Source: Natrinema sp. SYSU A 869
GTDB taxonomy: Archaea > Halobacteriota > Halobacteria > Halobacteriales > Natrialbaceae
Direction: 5' to 3'
Length of the DNA: 64,000 bases
NCBI RefSeq assembly: GCF_019879105.1
Contig: NZ_CP082249.1
Location: 3,286,001-3,350,000 of the forward strand
Position numbers and translations under genes: made by a program. Positions 5,730-32,787 of the stretch are shown here, in pieces. The notes beneath the pieces are model-generated. The model did no database searches. It worked only from the letters and a program-made list of their open reading frames with translations, and was not told where the DNA came from. The first letter of the stretch is position 1. The number at the start of each line of letters is the position of its first letter.

Positions 5730-6689
5730 CTATCGGCGGTCGACGCGCTGGATCCACGTCCCCGGCGCGTCGAGTTCGTCGTGGCTTGGGAGGTTCTCGG
5801 GCCCTTCCCAGACCAGACTTGCCGTCTCGAGGTCGCGGACGGCGACGACATGCTCGAAGAAGTTTTTGCCGCGCTCGTACTGGCGCTCTTTGAGCCCGAG
5901 CCCGAGCAAGCGGCGGAAGAGCTTCTGGAGCGGCCCCCGTCCCTGCCGGCGCGCGTCGAGTTTGCGCCGCAGGTCCTCGTACTCGTCGTCGAAGGCGTGG
6001 TCCATCAGGAGTTCAGCGTATCCCTCGACGACGGTCATCGCGGCGTCGAGGTCGCGGAAGGCGTCTCGATCGAACGAGCCCTCCGAGAGAGTCTCGATAC
6101 CGTCTTCCATGCGAGTCTCGAGGTGATCGGAGAGCCACGGCGCGGCCCCGAACTCGGCGGCGTGGGTTACCTCGTGGAAGGCGATCCAGCGGCGGAACCG
6201 GTCCGAATCCACGTTGAGCTTGTCGGCCGCGTTAAGGATATTCGGCCGGACGAAGTACAGCGCGTGATCGTTCGTGGGCGCGTCGGCCAGGAGGAGCGGA
6301 TCGTACTGGCCGAGGACGTTCCGCCCGAGGAAGGAGAGCAGGACGGTCATTGTCCCCGTATTAATCGTCCGGGCGACGCCGGGGAACACACCTGTGTGTG
6401 TCTCGAGCGCACCCATCACGCGCTCGAAGGTGGCGACGTTAGCGTCGATCCAGTGGTGACGGTTCTGGATCTCGACGGTCTCGGGCACGTCGAAGTCGAC
6501 GCCAGAGACCGTTCGAACGGCGGCTCGGGCGTCTCGGACGTCGCGGGCGTAGGCCTCACTCTCTCCGGACTCGAGGTCGAGCGGGCCGGGGTCCGTCGCA
6601 GCTTTGGCGGCGTCGGCGGCTGACCGCCAGTCGATCGCATCGTCACCGGACGCCCCGGCAACTGCCCGGGCGCTACGATAGAGATTCAC
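5730..6689 (-). CDS. zinc-dependent metalloprotease-like protein (DUF2342 type)
   Basis: The protein has 319 residues and starts at a GTG (6687-6689) giving MNLYRSARAVAG, the N-terminus I expect for this family. The central HEVTH (about residue 173), in the context FHEVTHAAEFGA, is the zinc-binding motif of the DUF2342 / coenzyme F420-biosynthesis-associated metalloprotease-like family. The first His, the Glu and the second His are all present. A helical C-terminal domain (GLKERQYERGKNFFEHV) follows. Its biological substrate is unknown. The in-frame extension upstream of the GTG is low-complexity and is not taken as coding. Confidence 0.8.
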   Translation of the reverse strand: MNLYRSARAVAGASGDDAIDWRSAADAAKAATDPGPLDLESGESEAYARDVRDARAAVRTVSGVDFDVPETVEIQNRHHWIDANVATFERVMGALETHTGVFPGVARTINTGTMTVLLSFLGRNVLGQYDPLLLADAPTNDHALYFVRPNILNAADKLNVDSDRFRRWIAFHEVTHAAEFGAAPWLSDHLETRMEDGIETLSEGSFDRDAFRDLDAAMTVVEGYAELLMDHAFDDEYEDLRRKLDARRQGRGPLQKLFRRLLGLGLKERQYERGKNFFEHVVAVRDLETASLVWEGPENLPSHDELDAPGTWIQRVDRR

Positions 6690-27654: not shown

Positions 27655-27771
27655 CGACCGCGACGCACTGATCAGCGCAGTCTCCGCACTGTCTTTTTCG
27701 CATCCAACGTTACCGAGAAAGCGAGCGATTCCACGCGAGAGTGATGACAGAAGCGAGGCGTCGTGCACCGC

Positions 27772-30700
27772 TTAGTCGGCGGCTTCTTCGCTTCCAGCAG
27801 TTTCCTCTATGGCTCCCGCAGCTGGGTCGCCCAGCGTCTCGACCGGTTCGGTATCTGGGTCGTCATCCGGTTCTGCATCGTCAGGCGGTCCCGCATCATC
27901 GGGCGGTCCCGCGTCGTCAGGCGGTCCCGCATCGTCAGGTGGTCCTGCATCGTCAGGCGGCCCCGCATCATCAGGAGGACCAGGGTCCTCAGGTGGGGTC
28001 TCCGATCCACCGTCCGGTCCCGCATCACCGTTCGCTCCCCCGGATCCCGCTGTGGCCGCCTCGATCGTCACCGACACCTGATCGTCGTCGGTCGTGATCG
28101 TATGCGTCGACGTTCCCTCCGGCAACGCCGACGAGAACGGAATCTCGGCCGTTTGCCCGCCCGCGAGCGTCACGGTCGACTCGGCGACGGGTTGGTCGTC
28201 AACGCTGTAGGTCACCGTCTGCGTTCCCTCGAGATCACCCTGGTTCTCGACCGTCGCCGCTACCGTCACTTCTTCGCCGGGGTCTCCGCTGGCGGGCGCG
28301 GAAACGTCGACCACGGCGAACGCGGCTGGCTCACCGCTCTCCTCGACTGTCACTGTCGTCTCGGCGGTCTCGTTGTCAGTCGATACCTCGAGAGGGTACT
28401 CGCCGGGCTCGAGATTCGACGTGGGGTAGGTCAGCGTGCCCGTCTGGGTCTCACCGGGCTCGAGCGTAACCGACAACGGGTCACTGGCGATACCGCCGAC
28501 GGCGATTTCGATGTCTTGCGTCCCCGCTTCGTCGCCGACGTTCTCGAGTTCGGCCTCGACCGTGATGGGATCGCCCTGTTCGACCGGGCTGTTGGTCTCT
28601 ACGATCGAGACGCCGAATGTCGCGGGCTCGCCGCTCTCCTCGACTATCACCGTCGTCTCGGCGGTCTCATTCTCGGTCGATACCTCGAGGGGGTACTCGC
28701 CGGGCTCGAGGTCGTCCGTCTCGGCGGTAAACGAGACGGTCTGGCTTTCGTCGGACTCGAGGGTGACGGACTCCGAGTCGATCGTGGCATCGCCGATCGC
28801 GAGCGTGACGTTCTGCGTGCCCGCTTCGCCGCCGACGTTCTGGACTTCGGCCTCGATCTCGAGTTGGTCACCCCGCTCGACCGGACTGGTGAGGTTCGTG
28901 ATCGAGACGCCGAATTCAGCAGGATCGGAGGGCTCGATCTCGCCGGCGGGCGGCGTCGCCGCGGTCACGGGGTCGTCGTACCCGTAGTTCGCGAAGTCGA
29001 TCGCCCAGACGAGTCGTTCGTCGTCGCTCTCGGGCGTCCACTCGATGGTGAACGTTCCCTCGCCAGGCTCCAGTTCGGACGGCGGGTCGTCGGTCGCGGT
29101 CCCCTCGACGAACTGGCTGTTCCCGGCGATCGTCGCGTTGTTCGGGTTCTCGTAACCGAAAGTCACGTCGATGGCGTTCCCGTCCTCGGTGGGCGTCGTC
29201 TCTTCGACCGAAAGCGCCGGGAGTTCCGGTCGAGCCTCCTCGTCGCACTCCCTCGCCGAGGGATTCGCGTAGTCGATCGACGCAAAGGGCACCGCTTCCG
29301 GCGAACTGATACCGGAGATGTAGGTTCCGAAGGTGCCGTAGTCGGGAACCTCGACGATCACCTCGTCGTCATCGGTCGTTACGTCGCGTTCGTCGCCGAC
29401 CTCGAAGACGATCGTACCAGTAAACGGTGCCTCGATCTCGTCACCGGCAGTGACTGCGTCCTCGATGATCGTATTCCCGAAGCCGGCGGAATCATAGAAT
29501 CCCGTGCTCGCCGCGACCTGATCGCCCTCCTCGAGCGACGCGGTGACCACCGCACGCGAGCAACTCGTGAACTCGACATCGAACTCCGGGAGTTCGCCGT
29601 CGACCGTGTACTCGACGGAATCCGACTCGATGGGCGTCCCATCCGCTGCCGCGACGACCGCGACCTCGAGCGTCGCGTTCTCCTCGAGGGGCGGCTCCAG
29701 GTCGAACTCGGTCGGGCCGATCGTTTCGTTGGCAGCGAACGTGTCGCTCTCGGCGAGTTGCGTCCCGTTCTCGTCGGTGACGGTGATCGCGTACTCGACT
29801 GACGCGTTGGCCGCGGTGAGGGTGAGCGTCTCGCCGTCACCCGTCTGATCGGTCACCGAGAGGTTCGCCGTCGGCTCTGTCGGATCGGGTTCTACGACCG
29901 CGTACTCGATGGAGTCGTTCGCCAGCACTGCGTCGTCCGTCGCGGCGCGAACCGAGACGTTGACAGTCGTGTTCGCCTCAAGTGGCGGCTCCAGTTCGAG
30001 GGTTTGCTCCGCGACCGTCTCGTTGGCCTCGAAGGAATCGCTGTCGACCCGTTGGCCGTCGTACTCCGCTGTAATGACGTATGGCACGGACGCGCTCGCT
30101 GCGCCGATATCGAGGGTCTCGCCGTCGCCTTCTTGATCGTCGACCGACAGCGTCGCGTTCGGCTCGTCGGGCTCGTCCGCGATGGTATACTCGATCGTCT
30201 CGTTCGTGAGCGGTTCGTCGTCGTCCGTCCCGAGGACTGCTACGTCGAGCGTCGCGTTCTCCTCGAGGGGCGGCTCCAAGTCGACGGTCTCGTTCGTGAC
30301 CGTTTCGTTCGCCTCGAATGACTCGGTCTCTGCAAGTCGGGTGCCGTTCTCATCGGTGACGGCGAGCGCGTAGTCGACGGTCGCACTCGCCTCGTCGATC
30401 GTCAGCGTAGACCCGTTGCCCGTCTGGTCGTCCACGGACAGCGTCGCATCGGGTTGCTCGTCCGGCTCGTCCGCAATGGTGTACTCAACGGATTCGTTCG
30501 CGAGCGCTGCTCCGTCCTCGCCAACGATCGAGACATCGACGGACGTGTTCTCCGCGATCGGCGGCTCGAGGTCGAGCGTGAGATTCGTGACCTCCTCGCC
30601 GGCCGCGAACGTGTCGCTCTCGATGGTTTCGCCGTCGTACGACGCGGTCACGGTGTAGGGGACAGATGCGTTTGCCGCCGCGACCTCGAGGGTTTCACCA

Positions 30701-32787
30701 TCGCCCGTCTGGTCGTTGACCGACAGCATCACATTCGGTTCGTCGAGTTCGTCAGCGACCGTCACGAACGCGCCGTCGAGCACCGGTGCGCCGCCCTCGG
30801 TGACGTACGGCACGTCTTCTTCGCCGTCGGACTCGGCGTACTGGAACGTCCCGTCGTCGTTCGTATCGTGGTGGACGACCGCCACGAGCACGTCGCTTTC
30901 CGCGAGTGGCTCGTCGAGTTCGACCGTGACGTTCTCGTGCTCGCCGGCCTCGAGCTCGCTCGAGACGCCGACGATATCGTCTGGATCGGCGTCGACGGCG
31001 ACGCCCTCGTAGATCGCCACGAAGCCGCCTTCAGAGAGCGAGACGTCTTCGATCCTGACCTGCTCACCCTCGGACTCCTGATCGGGGAAGTCGATCGAGG
31101 CCGTCCCCTCGATCCGATCGATCGTCTCGATGCGCTGGACGACTTCGACCTCGACGTGCTGGGAGATCACCGTCACGTCGTCGGTATCCTCTTGGATCGC
31201 GTACGCGACGGCGTCGGCTGCAGTCTCCTGAGTCAGCGTCTGGAGTTGCGTAATGCTGATCTGCTGGGACTGGACGACCTGCGCCGTCTCCTCGCAGGCA
31301 CTTCGCGCCGCGGTCTGGATCTGCGTGACCGACGCCTCCTGTGACTGGACGAGCGCGCCGCTCGCACCGCCACGTGCGAGCTGCTGGACCTGCGTCACGT
31401 CGACGACCTGTGTCTGGGTCACCGATCCCTGGCCGGCACCGAACGCGGCGGCCTGTACCTGCTCGACCGAAACCTCTTGCCGCTGGATCGCGCTGGTCAC
31501 CGCACCCTCCGCGGCACCGGTCGCGGCCGACTGAATCTGCGTGACCGACACCTCCTGTCGCTGGACGAGCACGCCGCCCGCGCTCCCGTCAGCGGCCGCC
31601 TGAATCTGTTCGACGGTCGCCGCTTGGCTCTGGGAAATCGCCCCCTTCGCCGCACCGAACGACGACTCCTGAACTTGCGTGATCGAGGCGCGTTGGCGCT
31701 GCTCGAGACGTGTGGATTGCACCTGTTTCAGCGACCCCCGACTCGCACCGCGGGCCGCCGCCTGCGTCTGCTCGACCGAAACCGCCTGTTTCTGGACGAG
31801 CGCACCTTTCGCCGCCCCGGCAGCGGCCTTCTGTATCTGCTTGATTGTTACCTGCTGGCGCTGCTCGGCATCGACGCGTTGTTCCTGTGTGAGCGCAGCT
31901 CGCGTACTCCCCTCGAGCGAGCCGGCAGCCCCGCCGACCGCCGCGTGCTGGACGTGCTCGAGCGTCACTCGCTGGCGCTGCTCGGCCGATATCGACTGGT
32001 ACTGCGTCAGCACGCCGTAGGCCGCTCCCTGTGCGGCTTCCTGAATCTTCGACACTTCGCCAACGTCTTTCGCGCCCGCCTCACTCGCGGCACCCGCGGC
32101 CGCACCGCTAGTCGCGACCTGAATCTGCTCGACGCTCACACGCTGGCTCTGGGCGACCGCACCGTGTGCTGCACCCCAGGTTGCGCTCTGTAACTGGGTG
32201 GCGTTCACCGACTGGGACTGGGAGAGCCCGCCGGCAGTTGCGCCGCCGACCGCGTACTGAATCTGGGTCGCGTTCACCGACTGTTCCTGAATCAGCGCGC
32301 CGTGGACCGCGCCCTTCGTCGCCGCCTGAACCTGCTCAGCCTCGACGGTCTGATACTGGGAAACTGCCCCTCGAGCGCCCTCGAGCGCCGCCGCTCGCTG
32401 TTCCTGAGTCACCTCGACGCCCTGGGACTGGACGAGTGCGATCCCCTCGCTGATGCCCGACTCGACAGCGTCCTCGTGCTCCTGCTGGACCGATGCCTGC
32501 GCGTTCGCTCCGCCGTCCGCGGCAGTCGGGTCTCCGTCGGTTGCGGACGGTTCCATCGTCACCGGCTCGAACTCGAAGCCGGTCGCCGACCGTGCGCTCG
32601 CCTGCCCGCTCTCGTTCTGAACCACTGCCCGTCTCTGGTCTCCGGTCGGCGATTCGGCGGTCGCGTCGGGATCGTCGTCAGGCGCGACCCGCTCGAGGCC
32701 GCCTCCGAGTACCGGCAACGCGACGACGCTGCCGACCATCGCGGCCACAACCAGAACAACGGCGATGGTGGTTTGCGTTCGTCTCAT
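27772..32787 (-). CDS. giant secreted repeat protein: Gln/Gly-Ala repeats, DUF7282, CARDB
   Basis: The 1671-residue protein begins with a signal peptide (MRRTQTTIAVVLVVAAMVG). Domains in order: about 15 repeats of some 23 residues (about 125-530) with consensus VSVEQIQ-xAAxGAAxGA-[LV]xQxQ; a DUF7282-like domain (about 575-680); four Ig-like repeats of about 95 residues, each opening with LSV-[DN]-DQTGDGETL (about 680-1075); a further beta-rich region with three Cys (about 1075-1290); three CARDB-type domains (about 1296-1570); and an acidic Pro tail with six GPPDDA units. No PGF-CTERM or C-terminal membrane anchor is seen. It is probably a released or cell-wall-associated surface protein. The 23-residue repeat is unfamiliar to me. 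Confidence 0.88.
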   Translation of the reverse strand: MRRTQTTIAVVLVVAAMVGSVVALPVLGGGLERVAPDDDPDATAESPTGDQRRAVVQNESGQASARSATGFEFEPVTMEPSATDGDPTAADGGANAQASVQQEHEDAVESGISEGIALVQSQGVEVTQEQRAAALEGARGAVSQYQTVEAEQVQAATKGAVHGALIQEQSVNATQIQYAVGGATAGGLSQSQSVNATQLQSATWGAAHGAVAQSQRVSVEQIQVATSGAAAGAASEAGAKDVGEVSKIQEAAQGAAYGVLTQYQSISAEQRQRVTLEHVQHAAVGGAAGSLEGSTRAALTQEQRVDAEQRQQVTIKQIQKAAAGAAKGALVQKQAVSVEQTQAAARGASRGSLKQVQSTRLEQRQRASITQVQESSFGAAKGAISQSQAATVEQIQAAADGSAGGVLVQRQEVSVTQIQSAATGAAEGAVTSAIQRQEVSVEQVQAAAFGAGQGSVTQTQVVDVTQVQQLARGGASGALVQSQEASVTQIQTAARSACEETAQVVQSQQISITQLQTLTQETAADAVAYAIQEDTDDVTVISQHVEVEVVQRIETIDRIEGTASIDFPDQESEGEQVRIEDVSLSEGGFVAIYEGVAVDADPDDIVGVSSELEAGEHENVTVELDEPLAESDVLVAVVHHDTNDDGTFQYAESDGEEDVPYVTEGGAPVLDGAFVTVADELDEPNVMLSVNDQTGDGETLEVAAANASVPYTVTASYDGETIESDTFAAGEEVTNLTLDLEPPIAENTSVDVSIVGEDGAALANESVEYTIADEPDEQPDATLSVDDQTGNGSTLTIDEASATVDYALAVTDENGTRLAETESFEANETVTNETVDLEPPLEENATLDVAVLGTDDDEPLTNETIEYTIADEPDEPNATLSVDDQEGDGETLDIGAASASVPYVITAEYDGQRVDSDSFEANETVAEQTLELEPPLEANTTVNVSVRAATDDAVLANDSIEYAVVEPDPTEPTANLSVTDQTGDGETLTLTAANASVEYAITVTDENGTQLAESDTFAANETIGPTEFDLEPPLEENATLEVAVVAAADGTPIESDSVEYTVDGELPEFDVEFTSCSRAVVTASLEEGDQVAASTGFYDSAGFGNTIIEDAVTAGDEIEAPFTGTIVFEVGDERDVTTDDDEVIVEVPDYGTFGTYISGISSPEAVPFASIDYANPSARECDEEARPELPALSVEETTPTEDGNAIDVTFGYENPNNATIAGNSQFVEGTATDDPPSELEPGEGTFTIEWTPESDDERLVWAIDFANYGYDDPVTAATPPAGEIEPSDPAEFGVSITNLTSPVERGDQLEIEAEVQNVGGEAGTQNVTLAIGDATIDSESVTLESDESQTVSFTAETDDLEPGEYPLEVSTENETAETTVIVEESGEPATFGVSIVETNSPVEQGDPITVEAELENVGDEAGTQDIEIAVGGIASDPLSVTLEPGETQTGTLTYPTSNLEPGEYPLEVSTDNETAETTVTVEESGEPAAFAVVDVSAPASGDPGEEVTVAATVENQGDLEGTQTVTYSVDDQPVAESTVTLAGGQTAEIPFSSALPEGTSTHTITTDDDQVSVTIEAATAGSGGANGDAGPDGGSETPPEDPGPPDDAGPPDDAGPPDDAGPPDDAGPPDDAGPPDDAEPDDDPDTEPVETLGDPAAGAIEETAGSEEAAD
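27875..27982 (-). repeat. six 18-bp tandem repeats encoding GPPDDA
   Basis: Six consecutive 18-bp units (plus-strand form GCATCGTCAGGCGGTCCC with a few changes) encode (GPPDDA)6 in the acidic tail of the giant surface protein. The copies are nearly identical, so copy number may vary between strains by slippage. Confidence 0.9.

Follow-up and report, generated by a model that had tools for sequence, protein, structure and literature searches.

A conserved and uncatalogued 23-residue repeat, predicted to be helical, in multidomain proteins of haloarchaea

The N-terminal third of a 1671-residue protein of Natrinema sp. SYSU A 869 (P0001, gene REP) carries a 23-residue repeat that is conserved unit by unit among its relatives and matched no known repeat family. 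Its sequence, conservation, synteny, distribution and modular context were established directly from the genomes. We lean towards reading this region as an alpha-solenoid with one helix per unit, a stiff and nearly uncharged rod that would serve as an exported surface or matrix scaffold and bind a partner or itself.

Gene layout and modular context

The window, the whole 64,000-nucleotide stretch of DNA that was analyzed, contains REP on the minus strand at 27772-32787 with an ATG start, confirming the 1671-residue open reading frame of the original prediction; all features described here lie on that strand. A hydrophobic N-terminus (residues ~1-27, 32707..32787) found by a hydropathy heuristic is compatible with either a signal peptide or a signal anchor. 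The repeat domain begins with a conserved cap (residues 103-146, 32350..32481), which is modeled by AlphaFold2 as two helices. The cap is followed by 14 clear 23-residue units with inserts of +3, +8 and +16 (residues 147-506, 31270..32349) and, from the alignment, by a degenerate unit that may act as a C-terminal cap (residues 507-530, 31198..31269).

Downstream, the modules listed in the original prediction were all recovered. A DUF7282 domain (PF23951) spans residues 563-676 (30760..31101; E 1.9e-35, 121.9 bits against a cut-off of 27). Four Ig-like copies of ~105 residues (residues ~690-1110, 29458..30720) are visible by eye, with the motif LSVxDQxGxGxTL occurring four times, and have no Pfam match. 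CARDB domains (PF07705) match in three stretches at residues ~1331-1575 (28063..28797; E 3.8e-13, 49.9 bits against a cut-off of 22.7), a region that contains a 297-bp DNA duplication. The (GPPDDA)6 tail (27859..27996) consists of 6.4 DNA copies of 18 bp according to the tandem repeat finder. GC-rich codon usage most likely accounts for a 679-residue open frame antisense to the gene (27763-29802, plus strand). Elsewhere in the genome, the DUF7282 part has matches in three further proteins that do not carry the repeat (C3:2352316-2352657, C3:391023-391316 and C2:579204-579599; L003, L005 and L008).

The repeat unit, its conservation and its distribution

Identity at a lag of 23 within residues 96-560 was 0.265 (z 10.8 against shuffles), with further signals at lags 46 and 72 (z 6.3) and 31 (z 5.2). 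Some 15 units at about 125-530 had originally been proposed; the repeat is real, and a profile scan revised the count to 14 clear units between residues 147 and 506, with degenerate units flanking them at ~103-146 and ~507-530. The consensus is x-V-x-V-x-Q-[IV]-Q-x-A-A-x-G-A-A-x-G-A-L-x-Q-x-Q, in which Ala10, Gly13, Ala14 and Gly17 are near-invariant and positions 5, 9, 12, 16 and 20 are variable, a spacing of 4,3,4,4. An S, T, N or D occupies position 3 in 81% of units, and positions 2 and 7 are hydrophobic, as is typical of a helix N-cap with its hydrophobic staple. Variable and conserved residues alternate strictly from position 19 to 6 (p 0.0014). Gln makes up 16.6% of the repeat region and charge is low, with D+E at 8% versus 26% elsewhere in the same proteins.

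The 8-residue inserts already noticed (xVxVxQxQ) follow residues 264 and 357 (+8 each) and 295 (+16), and additional +3 inserts follow residues 238 and 434. Across relatives a unit spacing of 23 dominates, and outside the window's family inserts, where they occur, are most often +3 and lie at the helix end. One relative (L084, a 1807-residue frame starting near 6147) has several tandem xVxVxQxQ blocks (+32) between two units. The tandem-repeat finder detected no array for the 23-residue repeat in the DNA, which indicates that the repeat is old.

Each of the 28 further genomes of the genus that were searched has the 466-residue repeat region, within an orthologue of REP. Identity is 77-89% within the genus for one-piece recoveries and 54-69% for the family's other genera, the named relatives being species of Natrinema, Haloterrigena and Natronorubrum. 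The family varies hardly at all in how many units there are or in their order. In a comparison of 72 orthologues with 14 units, units of the same index were 72.5% identical between orthologues, versus 41.4% when units were compared within a protein, and the best match of a window unit was the unit of the same index in 945 of 994 cases. Unit 5 (31996-32064, residues 242-264; KIQEAAQGAAYG) is near-invariant across the class, above the other units. Values of dN/dS were 0.15-0.30 over residues 111-530 (coverage 1.00), while sequence or length is more variable in the N-terminal linker and the C-terminal modules. Given the fixed unit order, the same-index matches and the low dN/dS, the repeat is, on this sequence evidence, not low-complexity drift, and REP has been inherited under constraint in the window's family. 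The order DUF7545 gene - REP - bioYMN holds, with few exceptions, across the ~55 loci checked in the family, where REP stands alone with no operon partner between a convergent DUF7545 gene and the divergent bioYMN (bioY with the genes for its ATPase and permease).

The search for homologs by profile that was originally suggested, made here with diverse units (A5), detected it in 109 of the 391 halobacterial genomes sampled, from five families: 83 genomes that make up most of the window's family, and 26 in four others (f4, f5, f7 and f17). In a 294-genome sample of the phylum, only genomes of the window's order matched. Viral contigs yielded no relative, and among plasmids there were two haloarchaeal records only. 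A repeat protein annotated as hypothetical lies on a 327-kb Halobaculum marinum plasmid (NZ_CP119991.1, 14647-15468). Distant relatives keep the cap and the first units, with GAAHG in units 1 and 3 and QEAAQG in unit 5, and have other modules after the repeat, including three DUF7282 domains, a NosD-type beta-helix, TSP3 calcium-type repeats with a CAP domain, and Thr-rich stretches. Genome G032 encodes a second, 556-residue copy (L093, 6562-8229) in which the repeat is accompanied by a Tat-like RR signal and by a tail rich in Asn, Gly and Asp, with neither Ig-like nor CARDB modules.

The unit had no match among Pfam, NCBIfam, PHROG or PDB sequence families, and it is not described in the open-access literature searched; the impression that it was unfamiliar has held, and the repeat is uncatalogued. 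The Pfam repeats TPR, HEAT, ARM, Sel1 and LRV gave no match at E<=10 (26 and 14 members). Neither the protein nor the profile retrieved any meaningful sequence match from the PDB. PADLOC and PHROGs also had no match, so there is no sign of a defense or phage origin.

Predicted fold and competing explanations

AlphaFold2 was run on residues 103-264 (cap plus units 1-5) with an alignment of orthologues and in-register units 366-506 (A3). The resulting model is all-helical with a pLDDT of 91.1 and a pTM of 0.89, although only one of the five networks was confident (pLDDT 91, 67, 55, 43 and 31). A run on 595 residues with 8 rows reached a pLDDT of 39.5 and was discarded. The confident model places one ~16-residue helix in each unit, starting at position 4, with no strand in the repeats and the QxQ segment in the linker and helix start. 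Couplings at i,i+3 and i,i+4 within positions 4-17 have helical spacing, so that tandem helical units are supported by that network together with the co-variation, and one helix per unit is predicted. The GxxxG/Ala segment had been taken for a helix from the start, and the model agrees; the idea that QxQ is a strand is not borne out. The repeat is conserved and predicted to be ordered, and it matched no known family, so that neither outcome named as speaking against the original prediction was observed.

Co-variation between adjacent units modestly favors antiparallel neighboring helices. The antiparallel band scored 0.62 versus 0.32 +/- 0.09 (maximum 0.67) in 60 re-pairings of non-adjacent units within proteins, and the parallel band scored 0.08. 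This re-pairing was the control relied on, being fairer than a first permutation test that looked stronger. For units two apart the bands (antiparallel 0.66, parallel 0.46) do not discriminate. The orientation rests on fold matches and coevolution, not on model coordinates.

As for known folds, a Foldseek search of the model against the PDB and viral models, the check proposed originally, found no match at E<=1e-3. The best fold matches were designed helical repeats (8ugc FD15, DHR5 and DHR10), which are man-made and imply no homology. The best structural alignment, to the flat designed repeat 8ugc FD15, covered 156 of 162 residues at an rmsd of 5.8 with a Z of 9.3, a value within the noise, which the tool puts at about 13 for helical repeats. 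TPR, HEAT, ARM, Sel1 and PPR proteins are alpha-solenoid repeat proteins (PMC11514114). Like these, the haloarchaeal repeat has tandem short helices, predicted here, that would stack into a rod with fixed unit order, but TPR-type units have two helices in roughly 31-40 residues whereas this unit has one in 23. It also differs in its Gln/Ala/Gly core, its lack of a Pfam repeat match and the extracellular-type modules downstream. The best reading of the model is a new family within the alpha-solenoids, with a new unit of one helix and 23 residues. Glycine-zipper proteins (PF13441) share the GxxxG/Ala helix packing, but their profile lacks the 23-residue QxQ unit; it gave no match to P0001 at E<=1 and weak matches to single relatives (2 of 26, best E 1.9e-4).

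The strict alternation at positions 19-6 and the i,i+2 couplings along positions 19-8, which we read as an extended linker, could instead mark a strand. In such a beta-alpha solenoid, a strand from 19 to 6 (LxQxQxVxVxQ) would stack inward V and Q into a parallel Gln ladder with an outer helix at 7-18, and each 8-residue insert, being exactly of that length and repeating the alternating pattern, would add a strand. The +8 and +16 inserts and the alternation do resemble a strand and make the strongest case for one; the helix model offers no explanation for them. Nevertheless, AlphaFold2 starts the helix at position 4 and shows no strand, and adjacent units couple in antiparallel rather than parallel register, making this arrangement unlikely. 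Gln-rich segments might also stack between molecules as in a functional amyloid. Curli (CsgA) repeats are 22-23 residues long, Gln-rich and secreted, much like the haloarchaeal repeat, and the 16.6% Gln and low charge of the latter would suit a fiber of this kind. We nonetheless consider a curli-like fiber highly improbable, since the repeat is predicted to be helical, its units are individually fixed over genera, and no curlin or other repeat family matched the relatives (26 and 14 members) in Pfam at E<=10. The amyloid-type QxQ ladder suggested originally is set aside on the same grounds of helical model and fixed unit order. The protein may still have an adhesive or fiber function.

A third explanation accepts the rod and denies it a partner, so that it would merely hold the other modules off the cell. 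The differing C-terminal modules that follow the same repeat domain and the nearly constant unit number in the window's family would suit such a passive spacer, but a mere spacer would not require every unit to stay distinct, unit 5 with its near-invariant QEAAQG among them, and we judge this explanation rather improbable.

Under the one-helix alpha-solenoid, each 23-residue unit would form a helix at positions 4-19/20, the remaining xQxQxVx being a short extended linker. Antiparallel neighboring helices would pack closely through Ala10, Gly13, Ala14 and Gly17, burying a core of Ala, Gly and Gln, and hydrogen bonds from Gln 21, 23, 6 and 8 may tie linkers and helix starts together. Positions 5, 9, 12, 16 and 20, with 22, 1 and 3, would form an exposed face free to vary.

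Probable export, possible surface placement and meaning

A hydrophobic N-terminal stretch, found by the hydropathy heuristic, is present in 107 of 107 relatives and would direct export. The earlier view of P0001 as a large secreted protein holds in so far as P0001 is probably an exported multidomain protein. Eight relatives have hydrophobic C-terminal tails with basic ends, which suggests that these proteins are anchored at the surface; the PGF-CTERM model did not match the relatives' tails, and P0001 has no such tail. An acidic content of 8% is odd for the outer surface of a halophile and hints that much of the repeat may be covered or assembled. Beside the acidic Ig-like and CARDB modules and the Pro/Asp tail, the solenoid would form a stiff, nearly uncharged rod or platform, most likely serving as a scaffold, at the cell surface or in a matrix, for binding a partner or for self-association. 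Much more tentatively, and we regard it as doubtful, it may represent an undescribed class of extracellular alpha-solenoid with one Gln-locked, nearly uncharged helix per unit, stable in brine without the usual acidic surface of halophiles and self-assembling into a matrix or surface lattice.

The interest of the repeat lies in its conservation and unusual chemistry. As an uncatalogued family it would add to the few archaeal surface folds known, its simple one-helix unit is a possible design template, and with only 8% acidic residues it would be a test case for extracellular folding at high salt.
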